The notes under the pieces were generated by a model. The model was given only the letters and a program-made list of their open reading frames with translations, made no database searches and was not told the DNA's origin. Shown here in pieces: positions 3,307-23,564 of a stretch of DNA of 24,231 nt (position 1 is its first letter; each line of letters begins with the position of its first letter). This stretch comes from a virus, in the IMG/VR virus record IMGVR_UViG_3300005528_000190, positions 1-24,231 of that record; one strand, written 5' to 3'. A program made the position numbers and the translations under genes.

Positions 3307-3966
3307 ATGGCATATGTGTATAGACATATAAGACAAGATACTAACACACCGTTTTATATTGGTATAGGTAGTGATGCTAAATTTAAACGTGCTTATTCTA
3401 AGTATAATAGAAATAGGTATTGGGTAAGTGTCACAAACAAAACTGATTATAAGGTAGAAATTATTTTAGATGAGCTTGATTGGAACATTGCTTGTAAAAA
3501 AGAAAAAGAATTTATTAGTCTTTATAAATCCTTTGGAATATCTCTTGTTAACTTAACAGATGGTGGAGAAGGAATGTATAATCCTAATTCTGTTGTTAGA
3601 AAAAAAATTTCTGAGGCAAAACTTGGTATAAAAAATCCTCAGTATGGTATAAAATGGTCAGATGAGAGAAAAGAGTATTTTAAAATAAAAATGCAAGGAG
3701 AAGGTAACCCAAATTTTGGTAAAAAAATACCGGATACTCAAAAGATGATAATTGCTTCTGCTCAAAAAGGTAGAGTAAAATCAGATGAAGAAAAAGAAAA
3801 GATATATTCAAAGACAAGAAAAAAAGTAATTAATACAGAAACTAATCATATTTATACTTCAATAAATGAAGTTGCAAGAGTTTTTAAAAAATCTCCTTCT
3901 CATATGACTAGACTCATTAAGAAAAACAAATTCAATTTAAAGTTTTTAGCAGATGCAAGTATATAA
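3307..3966 (+). CDS. GIY-YIG homing endonuclease with NUMOD3 and NUMOD1-like C-terminus
   Basis: This 219-residue protein has a divergent GIY-YIG nuclease domain at the N-terminus: VYRH at residues 4-7 and PFYIGIG at 15-21 correspond to the GIY and YIG strands, with an Arg/Lys-rich helix after and a likely catalytic glutamate in KEKEFISLY (65-73). Two NUMOD3-type repeats follow (KLGIKNPQYG about 105-114 and GEGNPNFGKK about 131-140). A NUMOD1-like segment (INTETNHIYTSINEVARVF, about 175-193) and a basic helix probably contact DNA. Such enzymes cut an allele lacking the gene and spread by recombination. The gene sits exactly between terL and portal with no spacing upstream and a short overlap downstream. 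It is more A-rich than its neighbours (many AAA/AAT codons and poly-A runs), consistent with independent acquisition. It is not needed for virion assembly. Confidence 0.88.
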   Translation: MAYVYRHIRQDTNTPFYIGIGSDAKFKRAYSKYNRNRYWVSVTNKTDYKVEIILDELDWNIACKKEKEFISLYKSFGISLVNLTDGGEGMYNPNSVVRKKISEAKLGIKNPQYGIKWSDERKEYFKIKMQGEGNPNFGKKIPDTQKMIIASAQKGRVKSDEEKEKIYSKTRKKVINTETNHIYTSINEVARVFKKSPSHMTRLIKKNKFNLKFLADASI

Positions 3967-6800: not shown

Positions 6801-8045
6801 ATGGAAGACACTAATAAGAGTGCAGAGATGTCTGACTCTACAACGGTAGAGCAAGTAGATGTAAATCTTGATGAGTTATTTGGAGCACCTGGTGCAGAAA
6901 GCGTGATGCTTCCAAGTAATGAAGAAGAAGAAAAAAAGAAAACAGTTTTTAGTTCAGAGGGAACTGTAGATGTGACGTTCATTGACAAGCCTGGAACTCC
7001 TCAAGAAACACAAGAGGAGAAACAAGAAGTTCAAGAAGCAATTGCAGAACTTGACAATCTTATTTCACAAGAAGAAGAAGCTGGTAATAAAGGTAGACCT
7101 AAAGTAGACAAATCTGGTTTAGCGGAGTTAGCATCAAAGATGATTGAAGAAGGAACATTGTTTCCATTTGATGATGACAAATCTTTAGAAGATTATACTA
7201 CAAAAGACTTCAGAGAATTATTTGAAGCTAACTTTAAAGAAAGAGAGAATAGCATTAGAGAGAACACTCCTAAAGAATTCTTTAAAGCATTACCTCAAGA
7301 ACTTCAAGTAGCTGCTAAATATGTAGCTGATGGTGGACAAGATTTAAAAGGACTATTCAGAACTCTTGCGCATGTAGAAGAAATAAGAGATCTAGATCCT
7401 TCTCATGAAAATGATCAAGAAGAGATTGTAAGACAGTATCTATATGCTACAGGATTTGCAGATGGTAATCCTGATGAAATAGAATCTGAGATACAAGATT
7501 GGGCAGACATGGGTAAACTTGATCAAAAAGCTCAGCAGTTTAAACCAAAGTTAGATAGAATGCAAGAAGAGATTGTTGCAAGACAACTAGCTGAACAAGA
7601 AGCAAGAAAAGATCAACAAGAAAGACAAGCTAAGCATTACATGGATAATGTATATAATACTCTTTCAGTAGGTGAATTAAACGGTGTTAAACTAGATAAG
7701 AAAACACAAGGTTTACTTTACTCAGGTCTAGTTCAGCCCAACTACCCTTCTATATCAGGAAGACCTACAAACTTACTAGGTCACCTATTAGAGAAGTATC
7801 AGTTTGTAGAACCAAGACATGATCTTATTGCTGAAGCATTATGGTTACTTGCAGATCCAGATTCTTATAAAAACAGAATCAAAGAACAAGGAGGAAAGCA
7901 AGTTACTGAAAAAGTAGTAAGACAGTTAAAGACTGAGGAAGCAAGAAAGCTATCATCCTCTAGTCCAAATGATGAAGAGTTTACTAAAAAGAAACCAACA
8001 AGAACAATATCCAGGCAACAGAGTAATATTTTTAAACGCTTTTAA
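6801..8045 (+). CDS. Acidic, coiled-coil scaffold-like protein upstream of MCP
   Basis: This 414-residue protein is strongly acidic and Glu/Gln/Lys-rich, with a disordered N-terminus (VDVNLDELFGAPGAE, then an EEEEKKKT stretch) and long helices in the middle (about residues 130-290, containing QEEIVARQLAEQEARKDQQE). The C-terminus is basic (KKKPTRTISRQQSNIFKRF). The layout of an acidic helical body with a basic C-terminal tail immediately before the capsid gene is that of internal scaffolding proteins, whose basic end binds the capsid protein during prohead assembly. No protease signature was recognised. The start follows an AAAACCAACAAATT leader, and the MCP starts 29 bases downstream, so the two are co-expressed. 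The function is inferred from composition and position; another internal head protein is the main alternative. Confidence 0.6.
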   Translation: MEDTNKSAEMSDSTTVEQVDVNLDELFGAPGAESVMLPSNEEEEKKKTVFSSEGTVDVTFIDKPGTPQETQEEKQEVQEAIAELDNLISQEEEAGNKGRPKVDKSGLAELASKMIEEGTLFPFDDDKSLEDYTTKDFRELFEANFKERENSIRENTPKEFFKALPQELQVAAKYVADGGQDLKGLFRTLAHVEEIRDLDPSHENDQEEIVRQYLYATGFADGNPDEIESEIQDWADMGKLDQKAQQFKPKLDRMQEEIVARQLAEQEARKDQQERQAKHYMDNVYNTLSVGELNGVKLDKKTQGLLYSGLVQPNYPSISGRPTNLLGHLLEKYQFVEPRHDLIAEALWLLADPDSYKNRIKEQGGKQVTEKVVRQLKTEEARKLSSSSPNDEEFTKKKPTRTISRQQSNIFKRF

Positions 8046-8074: not shown

Positions 8075-9691
8075 ATGGCAACTCCAGTTTTAAACAATGG
8101 TATATTCCTGCGTGACACTGCATACAATGCTACGTCACATGTGGATTCTTACCACTTAACAAACATGTTGAAGGATGCAGAACCTATGGATCTGGGCCCA
8201 GTAGACCTTTGGGCTATGGCACAGAAAGTAGAGATGCCCCTTTATCAGATGTCCTCTTTTGGAGGAAAGAATGTAATCATGGTAGACAATGCTCGTGGAG
8301 AGTATAAGTGGCAGACTCCTGTCTCTATTGATCTACCATATATCATTGAAGACATTGAGCCTCTTAATGAGTTCAAAGGTGTAGATGGTACTACTTTCAA
8401 AATCAAGATTAACAAACGTGAGTTTGGTCACGGAGATATCTTGACTTATGACAAGTACAATGGTGTGGAGATGTATGTTACTCAAGAAGATATTCTTCCT
8501 GTAGGTGACGGATTTATCTATACTGTTCAACTTGTAAACAATGACAACTACAAGTTCTTAGAGAACAGGTATCTTGCTAATGGTACTAAAGTATTCCGTA
8601 AAGGTTCTGCAAGAGGTGAGTATGGTGAAAGATTTTCTGACATCATCACTAATGCTGGATTCCGTGAATTCTATAACTATGTAGGTGGTGCTGAAGCTCA
8701 CGTTCACTATTCAATCTCTTCTCGTGCAGACTTGATGATTAAAGGTGGAATGAATGCAGATGGTACTGTACCTGTTACTGAAATCTGGAGAACATTTGAT
8801 AAGGGTCTTGATCCATCCATTGCATCTCTTGAGGACATGGTAAAAGTTATGGGTAAAGACTCTGTGAAGAAAGCATTTGATAATGGTAATCTTTCACGTA
8901 CATTCTTGACCAATATGGAAGCTGCTCACTTGAGCAAAATTGCTTCTGACATTGAGACTTACTTGATGTGGGGACAAGGAGGTAGAGTTAAGCAAGATGG
9001 TCCAGATGATATCAGATTATCTGTGGGTCTTTGGAAGCAGTTGGATAACTCATTCAAAAGAGTATACAACAAAAATAACTTTACACTTGACTTATTCCGT
9101 GGAGAAATCTATAACTTCTTCAATGGTAAGGTTGAGTTCCAAGGTCCAGATCCAAAGAGATCTCTAGTAGTTCAGACTGGTATGGGTGGTATGAGAATGG
9201 TTAATGAAGCTATCAAAAGAGAAGCTATCTCTTCTGGTCTTCTTATCCAGGCTGCTGACATCGGTGCAATTACTGGTAAAGGTATGGACTTGAACTTTGG
9301 ATTTGCATATACTTCATATGTGATTCCTTTCTTGGCAAATGTTAAGTTTGTTCTTAACCCAGCATTTGACAATGTTCATACTAATGATATTGAGAACCCA
9401 ATCATTGATGGATTCCCATTGTCTTCTTACTCATTCATTATCTTTGATATCACTGATAACACTAATGACAACATCTTCTTGTTGAAACTTTCTTGGGATA
9501 ACCAATTGAAGTGGTGGTATCAGAATGGTACAATGGATTATATGGGAAGAACTCAAGGGTTCCAGTCTTCTGGACAATTCAATGGGTACCGTGTAATGAT
9601 GTCTCAAACAATGCCAGCTATCTGGGTTAAGGATCCTACTAAGGTTCTTAAGATTGTTATGAGAAATCCAATTACTGGTGGATCATTCTAA
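8075..9691 (+). CDS. Major capsid protein (HK97-fold, crass-like type)
   Basis: This 538-residue product follows the scaffold-like gene and is closed by a strong terminator, the usual setting of the major capsid gene. The N-terminus (SYHLTNMLKDAEPMDLGP) and the segment QMSSFGGKNVIMVDN followed by EYKWQTPVS are consistent with my recall of crass-type capsid proteins; an HK97 fold is inferred rather than demonstrated. Codon use differs from the neighbours: many CGT arginines and ATC isoleucines where adjacent genes use AGA and ATA, as expected for the most highly expressed protein. It would form the icosahedral shell built on the scaffold around the portal. No N-terminal propeptide or protease site is obvious. 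The 546-aa product at 15952 has a similar expression setting but a different sequence. Confidence 0.82.
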   Translation: MATPVLNNGIFLRDTAYNATSHVDSYHLTNMLKDAEPMDLGPVDLWAMAQKVEMPLYQMSSFGGKNVIMVDNARGEYKWQTPVSIDLPYIIEDIEPLNEFKGVDGTTFKIKINKREFGHGDILTYDKYNGVEMYVTQEDILPVGDGFIYTVQLVNNDNYKFLENRYLANGTKVFRKGSARGEYGERFSDIITNAGFREFYNYVGGAEAHVHYSISSRADLMIKGGMNADGTVPVTEIWRTFDKGLDPSIASLEDMVKVMGKDSVKKAFDNGNLSRTFLTNMEAAHLSKIASDIETYLMWGQGGRVKQDGPDDIRLSVGLWKQLDNSFKRVYNKNNFTLDLFRGEIYNFFNGKVEFQGPDPKRSLVVQTGMGGMRMVNEAIKREAISSGLLIQAADIGAITGKGMDLNFGFAYTSYVIPFLANVKFVLNPAFDNVHTNDIENPIIDGFPLSSYSFIIFDITDNTNDNIFLLKLSWDNQLKWWYQNGTMDYMGRTQGFQSSGQFNGYRVMMSQTMPAIWVKDPTKVLKIVMRNPITGGSF

Positions 9692-9776: not shown

Positions 9777-10793
9777 ATGGAAAATGTAAACTTTACAATG
9801 GTTCAGACTAGTGAGAACAGAAAAACTCCTATATCTATTAAACCATATTTTGACAGATCTGTATCAAACATGGGATTAGAAATTTATAATCTTTCTCTAT
9901 TTGATGGAGTGACTCACAGTGAACAATTAGCTTGTATTGAAAGAAATGGAGTAGTTCAGTATCTTACTGGATTAAATGAATTTGCTCCTGAAATTAAACT
10001 ACTTCCAGAAGAACAAAAAGTAGCTAGAGTAAAACAAATTAGAATAGCAATTGCTGAGTTAGAAAAAGAATTAGCAGCAAATGTTCTTGATGTAGAAGAT
10101 ACTCACTTCTGGAATAATGTTAAGTTACTTAAACCTGATAATGCTGAGTTCTGGAATAAGATATCTATATCTTGTGGTAATGAGCCAGTATACCTAGATC
10201 CTAAAGATCCATTTGATAGAATTAAACTTTATGCAATTGAAGCTGGAGGATTTTCTATTGTAGCAAAAAACTATGATGAAGCTAGATCAAAAGCTGTTCC
10301 ACCAAAATTCTATCTTGATAAAGAACAAGAAACTGCAGGTGTTAAGACGGAGTACAAGAAGCTTAAAAACAAAGCATTATCTGAACTTCAAAAACTGTAT
10401 GATAAGAATAGCACAAAACTTTTCTACATTGCTAAAGCAGTAGACTTAGCTAGTGTACAGTATAAAAAACACACACCTAATGATATCATCTATGATAACA
10501 TGGATAGACATATCAATGGTGATGGTACTGAAAACAATAAAGAGAGAGCGGCTAAAGGATTCCTAGAAGCAGCTTCTATGGATATGGAGACATTAAAAGT
10601 TAAAGCAATTGTCAAAGATTCCATATTTTTTAAGTATATTATTAATAAGACAGATGGACATATCTATCATGTGAAATCAAACACTATGATGGGTAGAAAC
10701 ACATCTGAAGTTATTGAGTACTTGAAGAACCCTTTAAATGAGGATATTCTCAAAGATCTTAATAACAGGATTGAAAAGTTGTGGAACTCATAA
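9777..10793 (+). CDS. Uncharacterised head-region protein, 338 aa
   Basis: I do not recognise a named family. The protein is 338 residues, mixed alpha/beta, lysine-rich, without signal peptide or membrane segments. A helical stretch lies at about residues 79-101 (EEQKVARVKQIRIAIAELEK). The C-terminal part contains INKTDGHIYHVKSNTMMGRN and EVIEYLKNPLNEDILKDL, which reads like a small folded domain ending in an amphipathic helix. It directly follows the MCP terminator and has the doubled AAAACCAACAAATA leader, so it is translated efficiently even though it lies beyond a terminator; read-through or a promoter in the gap is needed. Position between MCP and the basic-protein cassette suggests a head-associated protein. 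A minor capsid or internal protein is more likely than an enzyme. Confidence 0.5.
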   Translation: MENVNFTMVQTSENRKTPISIKPYFDRSVSNMGLEIYNLSLFDGVTHSEQLACIERNGVVQYLTGLNEFAPEIKLLPEEQKVARVKQIRIAIAELEKELAANVLDVEDTHFWNNVKLLKPDNAEFWNKISISCGNEPVYLDPKDPFDRIKLYAIEAGGFSIVAKNYDEARSKAVPPKFYLDKEQETAGVKTEYKKLKNKALSELQKLYDKNSTKLFYIAKAVDLASVQYKKHTPNDIIYDNMDRHINGDGTENNKERAAKGFLEAASMDMETLKVKAIVKDSIFFKYIINKTDGHIYHVKSNTMMGRNTSEVIEYLKNPLNEDILKDLNNRIEKLWNS

Positions 10794-10805: not shown

Positions 10806-11699
10806 ATGAAAACTAAAACTAAAATGCCTAAAGCCATGTATGGTAAAACCATGATGAAAAAAGGTGGTATTAAAAAAATGCAGAAAGGTGGTACACCTTC
10901 TTATGCTAGAAATCAAGCTGCTGCAGAAAAACTTTATGATACAGACTCATCTGTAAGAACTTATACTAATGAGTATACAGGTAAAAAAATTCCTACGGGT
11001 CCAATGACTAAAGAAGAATACCAGAATGCTGCGGGAAGAGCTGCTAGTACAAGAGCTAAGGCAATGGGTGAAGGTCCAACTTTAAAGAAAAAAGGTGGTG
11101 CTGTTAGAAAAATGCAAGATGGTGGTACCCTACCTGCAAAACCTAAACCTTTTAGTACTAAGAGTTCTAAAATTGGTTTAGGTATTTTAAGTTCTGCTAT
11201 TGCTGGTATAACAGGTAAAGTTATTGGAGATGCAGTTAAAGCTAGAAAAGCTAAAAAAGCTGAAGAAGAAAAAAAGAAAAAAGAAGCTGAAGTAAAATCT
11301 ACAGAAATGAAAAGAGGTGGTATGATAAAAAGAAAAATGAAGACAGGAGGGATGGTTAATCCTAACTCTAATATTTCTTATCAAAAAATTGCTGGCTCAA
11401 AAGGTGTTACTTCTGGTGTTAATGCTAAAGCTTCAGCTTCTAAAGTAGCATCAAGTAGAGGAACTGGTGGTGTTAATACTCCTCCATCACAAGCTACACC
11501 TGCTGCAAAAAGAGGTGGTGCTGTTAAGAAAATGCAAAAGGGTGGTACTCCAGGTTATCCAGGTATTCCATCATCTACTAAAAAAATTGAATCCTCACCA
11601 CGCTATTCAAAATCTGTTTATGATTCTCAAGGTAGAATTAGATCTCAAAAACAGATGAATAAAAAAATGCAAAAAGGAGGCATGATAAAAAGAAAATAA
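10806..11699 (+). CDS. Basic KMQxGG-repeat protein with a hydrophobic segment, 297 aa
   Basis: This is a strongly basic, Gly/Ala/Lys-rich protein of unknown function. A two-part motif recurs four times: MKKGG-I-KKMQKGG at residues 17-29, KKKGG-AV-RKMQDGG at 94-107, MKRGG-MIK-RKMKTGG at 168-182 and KRGG-AV-KKMQKGG at 235-247. A single KKMQKGG stands near the C-terminus at 286-292. Linkers are low in complexity and probably disordered. Residues 122-144 (KIGLGILSSAIAGITGKVIG and on) form a glycine-rich hydrophobic or amphipathic helix, followed by a charged AKKAEEEKKKKEAE helix. Such a segment might cross or disturb a membrane, which would fit a packaged, ejected protein, or it may be a simple amphipathic helix. 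The gene starts the basic cassette, 12 bases after the 338-aa gene, with no terminator inside the cassette. Confidence 0.72.
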   Translation: MKTKTKMPKAMYGKTMMKKGGIKKMQKGGTPSYARNQAAAEKLYDTDSSVRTYTNEYTGKKIPTGPMTKEEYQNAAGRAASTRAKAMGEGPTLKKKGGAVRKMQDGGTLPAKPKPFSTKSSKIGLGILSSAIAGITGKVIGDAVKARKAKKAEEEKKKKEAEVKSTEMKRGGMIKRKMKTGGMVNPNSNISYQKIAGSKGVTSGVNAKASASKVASSRGTGGVNTPPSQATPAAKRGGAVKKMQKGGTPGYPGIPSSTKKIESSPRYSKSVYDSQGRIRSQKQMNKKMQKGGMIKRK

Positions 11700-11700
11700 T

Positions 11701-11997
11701 ATGAAAAGAATAATCAGATCTACAAAGGAGTTTATGAGAATGACTAAGGTTGTTTCTCAGTATAACACTATTAGAAATCACCTACAATCCTTAATTACTC
11801 CTGTTAAAACAGAAGAGGCTCCAGTTGAAGAAACTGTAGAAGTAGTAGAAGAAGTTATAGAAACTCCTGTTGTTGAGCAACCTGTAGAAAAGAAAGTATC
11901 AAAACCTAGAGCTCCTAGAAAAAAGGTTGTAGTAGAAACTACTGAAGAACCTGTAGTCACAAAAGCTCCAAGGAAGAGAAAAAAGAAAGATGCCTAA
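11701..11997 (+). CDS. Small two-faced acidic/basic protein, 98 aa
   Basis: This 98-residue protein has three parts: a basic helical N-terminus (MKRIIRSTKEFMRMTKVVSQ), an acidic valine/glutamate middle (VEETVEVVEEVIETPVVEQP, about 41-60) and a basic C-terminal tail with PRAPRKK and PRKRKKK clusters. The composition resembles disordered nucleic-acid-binding or linker proteins. No family is recognised. It begins one base after the 297-aa gene, and its last eight bases overlap the next gene (ATGCCTAA), so it is translationally coupled within the basic cassette. A role in neutralising or organising packaged DNA is inferred from charge and neighbours only. Confidence 0.6.
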   Translation: MKRIIRSTKEFMRMTKVVSQYNTIRNHLQSLITPVKTEEAPVEETVEVVEEVIETPVVEQPVEKKVSKPRAPRKKVVVETTEEPVVTKAPRKRKKKDA

Positions 11998-12328
11998 AGA
12001 CTCGTGCTATCATAGTGTAAAAGCAAGGTATGCTGTATTTCCTTCAGCTAGAGCCTCACAAGCAATTGCTAAGTGTAGGAAGAAATCTGGTACTGTAAGA
12101 AAGACAGAAAAAGGTGCTGAGCTTAAAAGATGGCAAGCTGAGAAATGGCAAGATACTAAATCAGGGAAACCTTGTGGGGCTGGTGGAAAGAATGAATACT
12201 GCCGCCCCACTAAACGGGTTTCAAGTAAAACACCAAAAACCAAGTATGAACTAACTCCTTCTAAACTAGCATCTAAGAAAGCTGAGAAGTCTAGAGTAGG
12301 TATGGGAAGAAGGGTTAAAAAAGTATAG
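11990..12328 (+). CDS. Basic Cys-containing protein (DUF5872-like module), 112 aa
   Basis: This 112-residue lysine/arginine-rich protein has a recognisable pattern. An N-terminal MPKDSCYHSVKARYAVFPSA with SQAIAKCRKK places cysteines at 6 and 29. It is followed by LKRWQAEKWQDTKSGKPCG and EYCRPTKRVSSKTPKT, with tryptophans about five residues apart and cysteines at 62 and 71. I recall this W-x4-W, GKPCG, CRPTKRVS, KTP arrangement from small proteins of aquatic phages and giant viruses, filed as a domain of unknown function (DUF5872 from memory, unchecked). The four cysteines could bind a metal or form disulphides. The start overlaps the preceding gene by eight bases. Charge and setting suggest a virion DNA-associated protein; biochemical function is unknown. 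Confidence 0.7.
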   Translation: MPKDSCYHSVKARYAVFPSARASQAIAKCRKKSGTVRKTEKGAELKRWQAEKWQDTKSGKPCGAGGKNEYCRPTKRVSSKTPKTKYELTPSKLASKKAEKSRVGMGRRVKKV

Positions 12329-12330
12329 TT

Positions 12331-12576
12331 ATGGCAGTAAGAAAAACAACAACAACCAGAAAAGCTCCAGCTAAGAAATCAACATCTTCAGTTGGAATTT
12401 CCATTTTAGGAGGTAATAAAGCAGACATGAGAAAATGGGAAGTAGAGTCTGCTATGTCTACATTACAAAGAGCAGCAGAGATTCAGAAGAATGCTAAGCT
12501 CATGAATGATGTAAAGAAAATGGCAGCTGAAAAAGCTAAAGAGTTTAATAATATAGCATCTGGTAGAAAATTATAG
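12331..12576 (+). CDS. Small basic protein with histone-tail-like N-terminus, 81 aa
   Basis: The first 20 residues (MAVRKTTTTRKAPAKKSTSS) are Lys/Arg/Thr/Pro/Ala-rich and resemble histone H1-like or HU-tail sequences. A short beta-like stretch (VGISILGG) then leads to a long amphipathic helix (about residues 30-75, MRKWEVESAMSTLQRAAEIQ onward). There is no known enzyme motif. It lies two bases after the preceding stop and two bases before the next ATG, so it is in the cassette operon. A DNA-binding or virion-internal role is suggested by charge and location. The protein is too short and low in complexity for a firm family call. Confidence 0.6.
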   Translation: MAVRKTTTTRKAPAKKSTSSVGISILGGNKADMRKWEVESAMSTLQRAAEIQKNAKLMNDVKKMAAEKAKEFNNIASGRKL

Positions 12577-12578
12577 TC

Positions 12579-13325
12579 ATGGCAAGTAGTAGAGCACAAC
12601 AAGCAGCAATAGCTATCTCAATGAAGAAAGCTGGTAAGAAACCTAAAATGCAAAAGGGTGGATCTAGTGGAAATGTACTCATTAGTAAGAGTGGTACTAT
12701 TTCAAGATTCAAGCCTGCAGAATCTTATATGGGTGCTAATACGTTTAGTAGAGAAAAATTAGATACAGCTGGATACTCAAAAGGTAAACAAAACTTTAAA
12801 TTAACTAAAGACCTTATATACAAAAATACACCAGGTGTAACAACACAGCTTACTAAAAAACCTTTATCATCTACAACAGTATCTAGGAAAGATGTTCCTA
12901 AAACTATACAGCAATTAAAACAAGGTGCTGATAAAACAAATACTTCTGTAGTTGGTGTTGCTACAAAAGCTCTTAAAACAGGAGTTGCTGCTGCAGCTAA
13001 AGCTGCTGCTAAACCTAAAAAAGCTAAAGGTGGTACAGTAAAAATGAAAACAGGAGGTTCTACACCTGCATGGACAAGAAAAGAAGGTAAGAATCCAACT
13101 GGTGGATTAAATGCTAAAGGAGTAGCAAGTTATAGAGCAGCTAATCCAGGTTCTAAACTTCAGACAGCTGTGACTACAAAACCATCAAAACTTAAACCTG
13201 GTAGCAAAGATGCTAAGAGACGTAAGAGTTTTTGTGCTAGAATGTCAGGAATGCCAGGTCCTATGAAAGATGAAAAAGGAAGACCTACAAGAAAAGCTCT
13301 TTCTTTGAGAAAATGGAATTGTTAA
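12579..13325 (+). CDS. Basic KMQxGG protein with C-terminal RKSFCARM...WNC module, 248 aa
   Basis: The product is basic and Gly/Ala/Lys-rich. KPKMQKGG occurs at residues 21-28 and KAKGG-TV-KMKTGG at 148-160, the same motif as in the proteins at 10806 and 13344. The middle has an alanine-rich helix (VAAAAKAAAKPKKAK, about 136-150). The C-terminal ~85 residues look like a folded module: AWTRKEGKNPTGGLNAKGVA, then KRRKSFCARMSGMPGPM, and the ending KALSLRKWNC, with cysteines at 219 and 248. I recall this tail from many marine and freshwater phage proteins, where it is a domain of unknown function. The paired cysteines suggest metal binding or a disulphide. The function is unknown; a small virion protein is inferred from location. 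Confidence 0.72.
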   Translation: MASSRAQQAAIAISMKKAGKKPKMQKGGSSGNVLISKSGTISRFKPAESYMGANTFSREKLDTAGYSKGKQNFKLTKDLIYKNTPGVTTQLTKKPLSSTTVSRKDVPKTIQQLKQGADKTNTSVVGVATKALKTGVAAAAKAAAKPKKAKGGTVKMKTGGSTPAWTRKEGKNPTGGLNAKGVASYRAANPGSKLQTAVTTKPSKLKPGSKDAKRRKSFCARMSGMPGPMKDEKGRPTRKALSLRKWNC

Positions 13326-13343
13326 ATATTTATATATATAGTC

Positions 13344-14126
13344 ATGAGAAAAATGGGATGTGCTAAATGTGGTGGCTCAATGAAAAAAGGAGGACCTGTT
13401 AAAATGAAAAAGATGCAAGAAGGTGGAACAATGTCCAAAGATGAAAAAAAGATGCGTAAAACTTTGGAATCAAAAGGTCAACCTGTGAGTCCAAAGTACA
13501 TAAACCAATATAAAATGGAAAAAGCAATGACAGCTGCAAAGTCATCAGGAGCTAGTATTGCTAAAACCGTTGGTGCTATAAAAAAGATGCAAGAAGGTGG
13601 CACTGCTAAAAGAAATATTAGTAAGCCAGGTGCAGGATTTGCTCCAGCTACTAAAGGTGGTAGCAATCTAGGTATGAACATCTATGGTATTCCTAATGCA
13701 GGACAAACAGGACCTAATAGAAGAGTTACTACCGAGACTATGAAACTTGGTGGAAGTTCTTCATTTAGTGCTAAAGTAGTACCTTCTTGCAGAAATGGTT
13801 TAGTAAGATTAGAAAATGGTAAATGTGGAACAAGAGAAACTCCTACTTTTAAAAAGGGTGGATCCTCAATACCAGACTTTAGCAAAGATGGTAAGATTAC
13901 TCAAAAAGATGTTCTTATGGGTAGAGGAGTTATTCCTAAAGCTAAGAAAGGTGGTAACTGGATTCAGGGTGCTATCAAGAAACCAGGAGCCTTGAGAGAA
14001 TCACTTGGAGTAAAAAAAGGTGAGACAATTCCTAAAGGTAAATTAGCAGCTGCTGCTAAGAAGGGAGGTAAGCTAGGACAAAGAGCTAGACTTGCTATGA
14101 CATTAAGTAAAATGCGTAAAGGATAA
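13344..14126 (+). CDS. Basic KMQxGG protein with EF-hand/dockerin-like loop and WIQ-KPGALR C-terminal module, 260 aa
   Basis: The N-terminus has CAKCGG (cysteines 6 and 9) followed at once by MKKGG (13-17) and KKMQEGG (22-28). KKMQEGG recurs at 80-86, and MKLGG, FKKGG and AKKGG follow at about 133, 169 and 200. Residues 178-189 (DFSKDGKITQKD) match a 12-residue EF-hand-type calcium loop with D at 1, S at 3, D at 5, G at 6, I at 8 and D at 12; the final D rather than E is dockerin-like. The C-terminal ~56 residues (WIQGAIKKPGALRESLG, then KAAAKKGGKLG-type sequence and RARLAMTLSKMRKG) form a compact basic helical module that I recall from many aquatic phage proteins. No enzyme motif is present. 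The protein is probably a virion or DNA-associated component built from reusable short modules. Confidence 0.72.
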   Translation: MRKMGCAKCGGSMKKGGPVKMKKMQEGGTMSKDEKKMRKTLESKGQPVSPKYINQYKMEKAMTAAKSSGASIAKTVGAIKKMQEGGTAKRNISKPGAGFAPATKGGSNLGMNIYGIPNAGQTGPNRRVTTETMKLGGSSSFSAKVVPSCRNGLVRLENGKCGTRETPTFKKGGSSIPDFSKDGKITQKDVLMGRGVIPKAKKGGNWIQGAIKKPGALRESLGVKKGETIPKGKLAAAAKKGGKLGQRARLAMTLSKMRKG

Positions 14127-14130
14127 TATC

Positions 14131-14658
14131 ATGAAGAAGAATAATAATAAACCTAATCCACTTAAGTTCTTTAATGACAATAATGCTAAAGCACGCATGA
14201 AAGCTGGTGGTGCTATGAAAGAATTTAAGAAGTCCTTACCTAAAGCTCAAGAAGGAATAATTGGTCCGCAAAATAATTACTGGTTTAATAGTCCTGAAAA
14301 AAGAGCTATGCGTGATGCTGGATCAAGATATTTTGCTGCACAAGAAAGATCTAATAATTTTGATGAAAATGCACAAAGAGATTACAAAGCATTAATGGAT
14401 AACTACCAACCACAAGGACCTGTAGTACCATTAGCTGACCAAGTAGCTGAGTTAAATAAGAAATATCCATATTATGATAACCTTTCAGAGGTTGAGTATA
14501 AAGGAGGTGATCTTAATAAAGGTTATAGTGCTATGTATAAAAAAGCAGACAAAAAGGATTCTTTTTCAAGAGAAGGTGCTTTAAAAGATGCTTATCCTAA
14601 TGTAGGTACAGGATTAATTAAAAAGAAAGGAGGTCCTGTAAGATCTAAAAAAAGATAG
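14131..14658 (+). CDS. Basic protein with degenerate GG motifs, 175 aa
   Basis: The protein starts with an Asn/Lys-rich tail (MKKNNNKPNPLKFFNDNNAK) and has ARMKAGG at about 21-27 followed by LPKAQEG, a worn version of the MKKGG/KMQEGG pair. A final KKKGG lies at about 164-168 near the C-terminus. The body between is less basic and contains NNYWFNSPEKRAMRDAGSRY and YPYYDNLSEVEYKGGDLNKG; no family is recognised. It lies four bases after the preceding gene and three before the connector-like gene, so it closes the basic cassette and links it to the neck/structural genes. A minor virion protein is the best guess from context. Confidence 0.6.
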   Translation: MKKNNNKPNPLKFFNDNNAKARMKAGGAMKEFKKSLPKAQEGIIGPQNNYWFNSPEKRAMRDAGSRYFAAQERSNNFDENAQRDYKALMDNYQPQGPVVPLADQVAELNKKYPYYDNLSEVEYKGGDLNKGYSAMYKKADKKDSFSREGALKDAYPNVGTGLIKKKGGPVRSKKR

Positions 14659-14661
14659 TAG

Positions 14662-15360
14662 ATGCAAAACAGTGTAATAACCATAAAGATTAAACAAAGG
14701 CTCAATAAGCTTGACAGTCAGGATTATGATAATCTTGAATGCTGGCAAGTTGTTGAAGCTTTTAATAAGGCTCAAGTAGAATGGGCTAGAAGACAGCTTC
14801 ATGGAATTAACATTGTTAAAGAAGGTGATGAACAATCTACTAGAAGAATTGATGACCTTCAAGTATTACTCAATACACAGAATCTAGCAGTTAGTGATGA
14901 AGAGTATTTTTACTCTGGACCAGTCCCTGAAAATTATCTTCAGTGGAAAAGGGTAGATACATTTGCTAATAATAACTGCTGTGAGAAAAGACGTATGGTA
15001 GTTTACTTAGCTGAGGAAGCTAACTTAAATAATCTCTTAAGGGATGAAGGTAAGAAGCCTAGCTTTGAGTGGGCAGAAACCTTTGCTACTCTAAAAGATA
15101 ACAGAGTAAACATCTATACTAATGGAGACTTTGAGATTGACTCAGCATCTCTTACATATTATAGACAACCTGTCAAGATTCAAATACAGGGATGTGTAGA
15201 TCCATATACCGGAGTACAGTCTTTAACAGAAGTACAGTCTGAGTTTAAAGATGATATAATAGAATTAATAATTGATGAAGCAGTAAGTATTATAGGTGGT
15301 GATATTGAATCAGGAAACCAATTCTCTAGAGGTACTGAAACTGCAGAACGTAACAACTAA
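14662..15360 (+). CDS. Putative head-tail connector (ring) protein, 232 aa
   Basis: The N-terminal helical part (RLNKLDSQDYDNLECWQVVE, then FNKAQVEWARRQLHG) leads to a beta-rich middle and a C-terminal helix (EFKDDIIELIIDEAVSIIGG). Helix-beta-helix proteins of this size are typical of adaptor proteins that form 12-subunit rings under the portal, and the motif pattern fits my recall of conserved crass-type ring proteins. The segment YFYSGPVPENYLQWKRV probably lies in the beta domain. It should bridge portal and tail, but the assignment rests on pattern and position. The protein is much less basic than the preceding cassette. It is followed by the Dps-like gene after five bases. Confidence 0.55.
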   Translation: MQNSVITIKIKQRLNKLDSQDYDNLECWQVVEAFNKAQVEWARRQLHGINIVKEGDEQSTRRIDDLQVLLNTQNLAVSDEEYFYSGPVPENYLQWKRVDTFANNNCCEKRRMVVYLAEEANLNNLLRDEGKKPSFEWAETFATLKDNRVNIYTNGDFEIDSASLTYYRQPVKIQIQGCVDPYTGVQSLTEVQSEFKDDIIELIIDEAVSIIGGDIESGNQFSRGTETAERNN

Positions 15361-15365
15361 TAACA

Positions 15366-15884
15366 ATGGAGACAAAATCAAGAATGTTAAAAAGAAATCC
15401 TGAACCTGCTAAGACTGTATCTAGACCTACTGTTACTGTAACTCAACCTAAGAGTGAGCCAGCTAAACCTGAACCTACTCCAAGTACAGGTGTAGGAGGA
15501 AGTTCTTTAGATAACATGGTTTCTTCTTGTGCTGTAGAACTTATGAATGCAAGAAACAGTTTTCATAAATTACATCTTAAAGTTACAGGAGAAGGATCTT
15601 ATGCAGCTCATGTAGCAATTGGAGATTTTTATGATGGTTTACCTGGACATGCTGATACATTAGTAGAAGGATACCAAGGAGTTGCTGAAAAGATATTAAC
15701 TCTAAAAGATGTATCATCTAGAACTCTTGAGACTGTATCAGATGGTGTTGCATACTTAAGAGACTTGTACGCAATGATAAATAAATTACAAGGAATGCTA
15801 CCTTATTCTGAGATAGTAAACAATCTTGATTTAGTAAAAGACTCTATCAATTCAACTAAGTACAAATTATTATTTCTGAAATAG
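15366..15884 (+). CDS. Dps/ferritin-like phage protein (DUF5856-like), 172 aa
   Basis: After a disordered Pro/Thr/Lys-rich N-terminus (about 1-45), residues 50-170 form a predicted four-helix bundle. The signature is NSFHKLHLKVTGEGSYAAHV, then AIGDFYDGLPGHADTLVEGY, with H67, H70, H82, D87, D90, H95, D97 and E101. This resembles the Dps pattern in which a helix with H-x2-H is followed by an acidic D..D..H.D...E helix near the metal centre. I recall this family from phages as a domain of unknown function related to Dps (DUF5856 from memory, unchecked). Possible roles are iron oxidation or storage, protection of packaged DNA, or a purely structural part. Its place inside the structural operon, between connector-like and abundant virion genes, hints at a virion component. 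Confidence 0.65.
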   Translation: METKSRMLKRNPEPAKTVSRPTVTVTQPKSEPAKPEPTPSTGVGGSSLDNMVSSCAVELMNARNSFHKLHLKVTGEGSYAAHVAIGDFYDGLPGHADTLVEGYQGVAEKILTLKDVSSRTLETVSDGVAYLRDLYAMINKLQGMLPYSEIVNNLDLVKDSINSTKYKLLFLK

Positions 15885-22308: not shown

Positions 22309-22893
22309 ATGCATAAGAAGTACAACTTACCAGATGTTAAAGCTCCAAGATTTAGACAAAATGGATTTAGCGTCTTAACAAAAAAGTTCTTTGATAGCTT
22401 TAAAACTAAGTATCCAAAGCATAAGGATATGACTGAATCTGATATAAGAAATATAATTAAAAGATTCAATACTCTTATGTGGGAGAATGTAATTGACTAC
22501 AGAGATGGTGTTCAGTTTCCAGAAGGTATAGGAACATTATTTATTGCAACATGTGAGAATGCAAAAAGCAAAAATGTAGACCATGTTAAATCCAAAAAAT
22601 ATGGTGTTGCTGTTAGTAATACTAATTGGGAAACAGATGGTAAACTAGCTAAAATATTCTATACAAGTTATGCAAGTAAATATAAGTTTGAATTCAGAGA
22701 ATGTTGGGGATTTAGAGCTTGTAGAAATTTTAAAAGAGCTGTTGCTAAAACATATCCTGAAAACTGGACTATGTATGTAAAAGTAGATCCTGTAAAAAAA
22801 CTTAGAGAAGTTTATGTAAAGGAGCAAACAAGACAATATGCATTATACAAAACAGAACAGAAATTAAAAAGTTATAATGAATTTGAGTTATGA
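22309..22893 (+). CDS. IHF/HU-like conserved crass-type protein, 194 aa
   Basis: This basic protein of 194 residues has an N-terminal helical region (LTKKFFDSFKTKYPKHKDMT) and then a helix and beta turn (IIKRFNTLMWENVIDYRDGV, then QFPEGIGTLFIATC at about 69-82). The last piece resembles the strand-turn of IHF/HU proteins, in which a short G-x-G-T-F sequence starts the DNA-binding arm. Crass-like genomes carry one or two IHF-like genes near the tail/neck genes, which matches the position here. The C-terminal half is Arg/Lys/aromatic-rich (FRECWGFRACRNFKRAVAKT) and could bind nucleic acid. It begins a new transcription unit after a terminator, and its stop overlaps the next start (ATGA). Whether it bends DNA or is structural is not settled by sequence. 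Confidence 0.6.
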   Translation: MHKKYNLPDVKAPRFRQNGFSVLTKKFFDSFKTKYPKHKDMTESDIRNIIKRFNTLMWENVIDYRDGVQFPEGIGTLFIATCENAKSKNVDHVKSKKYGVAVSNTNWETDGKLAKIFYTSYASKYKFEFRECWGFRACRNFKRAVAKTYPENWTMYVKVDPVKKLREVYVKEQTRQYALYKTEQKLKSYNEFEL

Positions 22894-23564
22894 CAACTGT
22901 AGCACAAGCAATATCAAGAGTTAGAGCAACTCTAAAAGCTGTTAAGGAAGATCCATTCTTAACTGATAGAAACATTTACTTTTCTATAGTTAAGTATGGT
23001 AAGACTCTCTTAAAGAGAGAAGATAACATGAACAAGCTTATGAGAATAAGTTCTTTGTTTACTGTTCTTCCTTATATGGAACTTATTGATGTTGACAAAG
23101 TGGAAGCTGGTTGCACAGGAGTATACTCAGGATGTTATTTTAAAAGAACCAAAGATCAACTTCCTCAAGTATTTGAAGGAATGTTTGGACCATTATTAAG
23201 AACTGTATCTTCTATAGATTCATCTATAAGAATGTTTAGAACAGAACCAGTTACATATGTTTCTATAACAAGATCTACAAACTATAAGTATAACAACAAG
23301 ATATACTTCTGGTATAGAGATGGTTATATCTATGTTGGAAATGCTGATTGGGATGCAATAAAAGTAGAAGGAATCTTTGAAGGAGATAAGTCTGACTTCT
23401 TATGTCCTACTCCTGAAAATCAATGTAGACCAAAACAGGATTTAGCTTTACCATTTCCTGAGTACTTATTCTCTGAGATAGAGCAGTTTGTTATAAAGGA
23501 TCTTACTACAGCATTACAAGTTCCACCTAATGGACCGGATGATTCACAAAATGCACTTAGATAA
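22890..23564 (+). CDS. Putative neck ring/adaptor protein, 224 aa
   Basis: The N-terminal helices (VAQAISRVRATLKAVKEDPF, then LTDRNIYFSIVKYGKTLLKR) lead to a beta-rich middle (LPYMELIDVDKVEAGCTGVY, then GCYFKRTKDQLPQVFEG) and a C-terminal helix (LFSEIEQFVIKDLTTALQVP). This helix-beta-helix order is like head-tail adaptor proteins, and it fits my recall of conserved crass-type structural proteins near the IHF-like gene. Two cysteine pairs are present. It overlaps the gene before by ATGA and the gene after by TAATG, so the three are translationally coupled. Role in the portal-tail junction is inferred. Same general layout as the 232-aa protein at 14662 but no clear identity between them by eye. 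Confidence 0.55.
   Translation: MTTVAQAISRVRATLKAVKEDPFLTDRNIYFSIVKYGKTLLKREDNMNKLMRISSLFTVLPYMELIDVDKVEAGCTGVYSGCYFKRTKDQLPQVFEGMFGPLLRTVSSIDSSIRMFRTEPVTYVSITRSTNYKYNNKIYFWYRDGYIYVGNADWDAIKVEGIFEGDKSDFLCPTPENQCRPKQDLALPFPEYLFSEIEQFVIKDLTTALQVPPNGPDDSQNALR

Follow-up and report, generated by a model that had tools for sequence, protein, structure and literature searches.

A cassette of basic proteins with a shared motif

The 24,231-base stretch analysed here (the window) is virus record IMGVR_UViG_3300005528_000190 of IMG/VR, a fragment that carries, between two genes of its head region, a cassette of seven genes whose mostly basic products share in several cases a repeated lysine- and glycine-rich motif, KMxxGG, often with KKGG ahead of it. 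The cassette genes are given below with protein lengths in amino acids (aa), net charges in parentheses and, where it was counted, recurrence among 45 related (kin) cassettes.

10806–11699, + strand: 297-aa basic protein (+51), four KKGG..KMxxGG pairs and one further KMxxGG
11701–11997, + strand: 98-aa Lys/Glu-rich protein (+7), motif-free; recurs in the closest relative (L005) only
11990–12328, + strand: 112-aa basic protein (+24), DUF5872 (PF19197, E 1.1e-12); in 23 of 45 kin cassettes
12331–12576, + strand: 81-aa basic protein (+11), motif-free; in 22 of 45
12579–13325, + strand: 248-aa basic protein (+45), C-terminal DUF6321 (PF19846, E 7.2e-24)
13344–14126, + strand: 260-aa basic protein (+43), starting CAKCGG-KKGG-KKMQEGG, with a 58-aa insert that closes with a second KKMQEGG
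14131–14658, + strand: 175-aa basic protein (+15), worn motif copies; in 27 of 45

A first-pass annotation, made from the letters alone, had drawn attention to this cassette, and its coordinates and open reading frames (ORFs) are correct, as is the tight packing that it described (gaps of 2–19 bases or slight overlap). Its statement that the neighbouring genes are very basic applies to most of them (+11 to +51) but not to the 98-aa gene, whose product is Lys-rich yet also Glu-rich. One copy each of the seven proteins sums to a net charge of +196.

The motif copies are arranged differently in each protein. In the 297-aa protein the four pairs and the single copy are all present as claimed, with KKGG-type elements at residues 16, 94, 168 and 235, KMxxGG at 24, 102, 177 and 242, and the single copy at 287. 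The 248-aa protein, said to hold the motif pair twice, does have KMxxGG at 23 and 155, but no true KKGG precedes the first and the second follows KAKGG. At least two pairs had been proposed for the 260-aa protein; only one full pair exists (13/23), and the half-copies are borne out by a single KKMQEGG (81) and three more KKGG. The worn form reported for the 175-aa protein comprises RMKAGG (22) and KKKGG (164).

Between and beside the motif copies lie recognisable modules. The C-terminal half of the 297-aa protein is an NPNSxxS..GVNxKASASKVA module that is found in 40 of the 45 kin cassettes. The 112-aa protein is composed of a PSARAS two-cysteine part and a KRWQAEKWQDTKSGKPCG part, and matches DUF5872 with 49 bits against a curated Pfam cut-off of 27.5. 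In the 248-aa protein, a SRAQQ leader is followed by KMQKGG, a 132-aa insert, KMKTGG and then DUF6321 (84.7 bits against a curated cut-off of 28.5), within which SFCAR..RKWNC is conserved. The 260-aa protein ends with KDGKITQKDVLMGRG and a GAIKKPGALR..RARLAMTLSKM module, shared with gp44 of Pelagibacter phage HTVC027P.

The motif is not a mere product of Lys/Gly-rich composition. Shuffling the residues of each protein 2000 times gives 0.03–0.15 KMxxGG per protein for the 297-, 248- and 260-aa proteins and 0.014 for the 175-aa protein, and no other gene of the window contains a copy. Across the 306 distinct cassette proteins of the 45 relatives, whose genes were called mechanically and whose common ancestry means that the counts are not independent, KMxxGG occurs 120 times against 6.15 in shuffled sequences and KKGG 149 times against 21.9. 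The 680 non-cassette proteins of the same loci (221,217 aa) hold four of each, against 4.6 and 8.9 expected. Likewise, in ten long relatives of 73–123 kilobases (kb), each record has one to seven occurrences of DNA with the coding pattern, almost all of them at the cassette, and none of the reversed control.

At the second position of the motif, the kin cassettes contain KM 118 times against 2.7 expected, KY 32 times against 1.7 and KF 10 times against 0.9, so that the consensus can be refined to K-[M/Y/F]-x-x-G-G-[S/T/A], where the hydrophobic residue is preferentially followed by K, A or Q. Synonymous codons are diverse, 118 motif copies in the relatives being encoded by 94 distinct 18-mers. 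Because codons differ freely between copies, selection acts on the peptide. The same diversity rules out the idea that the copies are recent DNA duplications. A motif common to otherwise unrelated basic proteins points, as first proposed, to a shared partner.

The motif as a joint between modules

At least 597 IMG/VR stretches encode a relative of the window's capsid protein. In all 45 relatives with both flanking genes, the cassette keeps its place, comprising 4–11 mostly basic genes over 1.4–4.9 kb between a gene of about 338 aa and the ring gene; its members are thus not scattered. The modules that recur most widely at these loci are NPNSxxS (40), DUF6321 (39) and part of the 260-aa protein (39), ahead of the 175-aa family (27), DUF5872 (23) and the 81-aa family (22), and none of them was matched outside the cassette within those 45 loci.

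The cassette is hypervariable beside a nearly invariant capsid protein. In L005, whose capsid protein is 100% identical over the tblastn match, the counterparts of the 297-, 248- and 260-aa proteins measure 226, 116 and 199 aa. The 132-aa insert of the 248-aa protein and the 58-aa insert of the 260-aa protein sit exactly between two KMxxGG copies, and the former, bounded at each end by the motif, is missing in both L005 and L070. Seven of eight clean indels of at least 20 aa start and finish at GG-motif copies (1.7 expected under the null), although two of these rows represent one insert seen against two partners, which leaves about seven independent events, a small number. Homology breakpoints, taken as raw BLAST ends, are moderately enriched within 6 aa of a GG (0.454 versus 0.305 ± 0.026). 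To judge from these comparisons, the motif is also a joint where modules enter, drop out or are exchanged. The SRAQQ leader, for example, joins DUF6321 after its motif in most loci and a two-cysteine module, CWPGY, in L021 and L028. Motif-bounded modules of this kind are a clear example of in-frame module shuffling in phage proteins.

Two further arrangements were observed among relatives. A second site of small basic genes bearing the motif or KKGG lies about 2.5–3 kb upstream of the terminase gene (L079:630–908, L064:637–930, L061:570–881). In distant crAss-like kin, a lone 77-aa gene with three KMxxGG-type copies directly follows the capsid gene (L141:5095–5328, L144:6436–6669) and is perhaps a minimal cassette.

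Occurrence in unrelated phages

The motif is not peculiar to the window phage, a point that, like its role as a joint and the presence of DUF5872 and DUF6321 in the cassette, the first-pass annotation had overlooked. Viral contigs were scanned for DNA that encodes KKMQxGG; the scan, which is not a census, returned at least 119 loci. Among the matches listed, 114 of the 119 are in frame, 88 lie in basic ORFs of less than 400 aa, 45 have a second copy and 38 are accompanied by DUF6321; for the reversed-peptide control (120 loci listed) the figures are 29, 16, 0 and 6. Outside the kin group, DUF6321 is present at 28 of the 104 loci listed, within 2.7 kb of the motif gene in the 22 that were measured. 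Among the large genes next to motif genes in non-kin phages are those for capsid (phrog_267, phrog_371), portal (phrog_1216) and terminase (phrog_38, phrog_979), and head-and-packaging families provide the best match for about half of the 20 neighbours tested.

An order of modules that recurs is DUF5872, KW/GKPCG and DUF6321, preceded or followed by a KDGKxTKxD module. As separate small basic genes in similar order, the same modules lie between portal or scaffold and capsid genes in HTVC027P (gp44–gp52), P-SCSP2 (19–23) and HTVC168P (gp29–31); HTVC168P gp29 even carries KKMLKGG. These clusters differ from that of the window in their unrelated capsid lineages and shorter proteins. In the cyanomyovirus syn9, the modules are fused in a single protein, gp114. 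A locus of capsid family phrog_371 (L124:10404–10574) encodes a KKLKEGGTV leader fused straight to a DUF5872 module.

Overall, the pattern suggests a widespread, undescribed class of proteins that would be packed in virus particles and are encoded beside the head genes of unrelated aquatic phages. DUF5872 is annotated in a giant algal virus (PMC12085832). An incomplete search of the open-licence literature found one paper that mentions DUF5872, as an entry in a gene table, and nothing on DUF6321 or on lysine-rich small phage proteins.

A possible role inside the phage head

Homologues of two cassette genes have been connected with virions in cyanophages. ORF160 of S-CREM2 (128342–129235), which contains a KW module and DUF5872, is represented by seven unique peptides in the proteome of CsCl-purified virions (PMC10665884, Table 3). 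S-SCSM1_29, which contains DUF5872 and DUF6321, is annotated as a "virion protein" in a genome study in which CsCl-purified virions were analysed by mass spectrometry (MS) (PMC9602691). Together with syn9 gp114, these proteins resemble the cassette in being basic and in having the same modules; unlike the separate genes of the window, each is one fused protein, lacks KMxxGG and is encoded in a T4-like genome. The head-gene location and the virion detection of these homologues fit an internal virion role for the cassette proteins.

We lean towards the view that the cassette encodes internal head proteins in which the repeated peptide binds a single partner inside the head through numerous weak contacts, the partner being either packaged DNA or the inner surface of the capsid or scaffold. 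Each protein would be a string of short modules, two-cysteine (DUF5872, DUF6321) and lysine-rich, joined by K-[M/Y/F]-x-x-G-G, which K-K-G-G often precedes. The many contacts would keep the motif-bearing proteins in the particle, and the lysine-rich stretches could neutralise DNA charge; by our own arithmetic, a hypothetical 120 or so copies of the set, at +196 each, would balance one in ten of the phosphate charges on a 120-kb genome. If motif copies are equivalent, gain or loss of modules between them, in frame, would be tolerated, which would account for protein lengths that vary so strongly next to a capsid protein that hardly changes.

Several observations weigh against this interpretation. 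The main gap is that S-CREM2 ORF160 and S-SCSM1_29 lack KMxxGG, so that virion presence covers motif-less homologues only. In the more distant phi17:2, Lbo-JY46 and csAssE-Sib, the two flanking genes are adjacent with no cassette there, and the cassette's function is therefore not essential to crAss-like heads generally. Folds are uninformative: searches of solved structures with DUF6321, DUF5872 and the 260-aa protein gave no relevant match, and the AlphaFold2 model of DUF6321 is mostly helical (predicted local distance difference test (pLDDT) 85.5, predicted template modelling score 0.51) with no meaningful PDB match, that of DUF5872 being of low confidence (pLDDT 55.9). The cargo stored in the crAss001 head, gp45, gp46 and RNA polymerase subunits, consists of large, helical proteins from other genes, and the parts of that report consulted mention no counterpart of a basic cassette (PMC10172136). 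Lastly, according to a 2012 paper, nothing indicates that much of the neutralisation of packaged phage DNA is owed to basic proteins (PMC3281028); a DNA role, if demonstrated, would for that reason be a real change.

The first-pass annotation had named docking to the capsid interior, DNA condensation and ejection with the DNA as possible functions, which sequence cannot tell apart. A possible though doubtful alternative to head proteins held by many weak contacts is that the motif acts as a tag for docking to capsid or scaffold and that the proteins are cargo ejected into the host, where the modules would act. The internal proteins of T4 offer a precedent, being basic, located in the head, hypervariable between relatives and equipped with a shared N-terminal capsid-targeting leader. 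In the kin cassettes, 64 of the 120 KMxxGG copies begin no later than residue 30 (27 ± 4.4 expected), and C-termini are depleted in copies; in L124 the leader stands directly before DUF5872, and hypervariability beside an invariant capsid protein would suit host-directed effectors. The N-terminal bias is, however, unclear in non-kin phages (29 versus 23 ± 4), and numerous copies are internal, whereas the T4 leader is N-terminal. Moreover, the modules in common have stayed conserved in phages that infect different hosts, unlike host-specific effectors.

It is improbable that the proteins are basic procapsid-assembly factors, for instance partners of the scaffold-like product of 6801–8045, that are not kept in the virion. 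The 414-aa product encoded ahead of the capsid protein is indeed acidic (−28), and T7-like phages have basic genes between scaffold and capsid, but the homologues of two modules were detected or labelled as virion proteins.

The processing step that had also been proposed is not supported. We judge it very unlikely that the GG motifs are maturation-protease sites at which precursors are cut to yield short basic peptides, in the manner of adenovirus core proteins. The residue after the conserved GG is mostly S, T or A, as a cleavage site might have it. The known GG-protease rule is (M/I/L)xGG, whereas the invariant Met here lies five residues ahead of the would-be cut. Peptidase_S78, sought also as a counterpart of the prohead protease that removes the T4 leader, and C39 were not found in eight long relatives, with positive controls, in a search that did not include S77 (T4 gp21-type) or C5; a C48 search matched nothing, its controls included, so absence cannot be read from it. 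Equally hard to credit is a motif that acts at the DNA level, as a recombination joint or a selfish repeat spread by recombination, with no protein function of its own, since, despite indel ends and homology breakpoints at motif copies, the copies are diverse in codons, interchange Met, Tyr and Phe, and are in frame at nearly all KKMQxGG loci listed.

For the internal head proteins favoured here, a likeness in kind is found outside tailed phages. The ascovirus P64 family combines two-cysteine modules with repeated basic motifs in variable number and is virion-abundant and DNA-condensing (PMC6163548). P64 repeats are arginine/serine-based and those of the cassette Lys/Gly-based, and a Pfam scan at E 0.1 found no PF08793 (2-cysteine adaptor) in cassette proteins, which are therefore not P64 family members. 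The basic virion proteins of chloroviruses (PMC3281028) also resemble them in kind.

More speculatively, many aquatic tailed phages might have in common a kit of protamine-like head proteins, exchanged horizontally, whose interchangeable modules are joined by K-[M/Y/F]-x-x-G-G and which coat the packaged DNA. This broader proposal is tentative and, if true, would contradict the accepted view that basic proteins are minor in the DNA packaging of tailed phages. An internal head role would assign a function to DUF5872, DUF6321 and many "hypothetical" small basic head-adjacent genes of cyanophages, pelagiphages and environmental crAss-like phages, and would make it possible to test directly whether tailed phages put basic proteins on the DNA that they package.

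Genome context

The following genes place the cassette within the window:

8075–9691, + strand: major capsid protein (MCP; phrog_11589, E 8.7e-30)
9777–10793, + strand: 338-aa head-region gene, left edge of the cassette (positional synteny with phi17:2 gp065)
14662–15360, + strand: ring/adaptor protein, right edge of the cassette (phrog_29507; matched by tblastn to the ring protein of csAssE-Sib and a structural protein of phi17:2)
22890–23564, + strand: crassvirus tail ring protein 2 (PF25702, E 3.3e-22)

By PHROG matches, the window also encodes a terminase large subunit (phrog_6681) and a portal protein (phrog_6547). On the strength of the terminase, portal, MCP and ring/adaptor genes and of tail ring protein 2 (CrAss_Ring_2; 79.7 bits against a Pfam cut-off of 27), the window phage is assigned to the crAss-like phages (Crassvirales). 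The gene order terminase, portal, structural, MCP and ring is that of csAssE-Sib, the nearest kin judged by ring protein, except that the cassette and a homing-endonuclease-like gene are inserted. The nearest cultured or named kin are Leptolyngbya phage Lbo-JY46 (28% capsid identity) and the Cellulophaga phages phi17:2 and phi4:1; a tblastn search of cultured phages with the 297-aa protein gave no match.

Three neighbouring genes merit mention. The acidic 414-aa gene at 6801–8045, upstream of the capsid gene, has no family match and a charge opposite to that of the cassette proteins, and its product is perhaps a scaffold. Between the terminase and portal genes lies a 219-aa homing-endonuclease-like gene (3307–3966; phrog_314, E 8.6e-19; NUMOD3), which is an insertion because L005 and other relatives have the terminase adjoining the portal. 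After the ring gene, positions 15366–15884 encode a DUF5856 protein that matches phrog_858 (E 1.7e-17), annotated as a "starvation-inducible transcriptional regulator", a Dps-like annotation.

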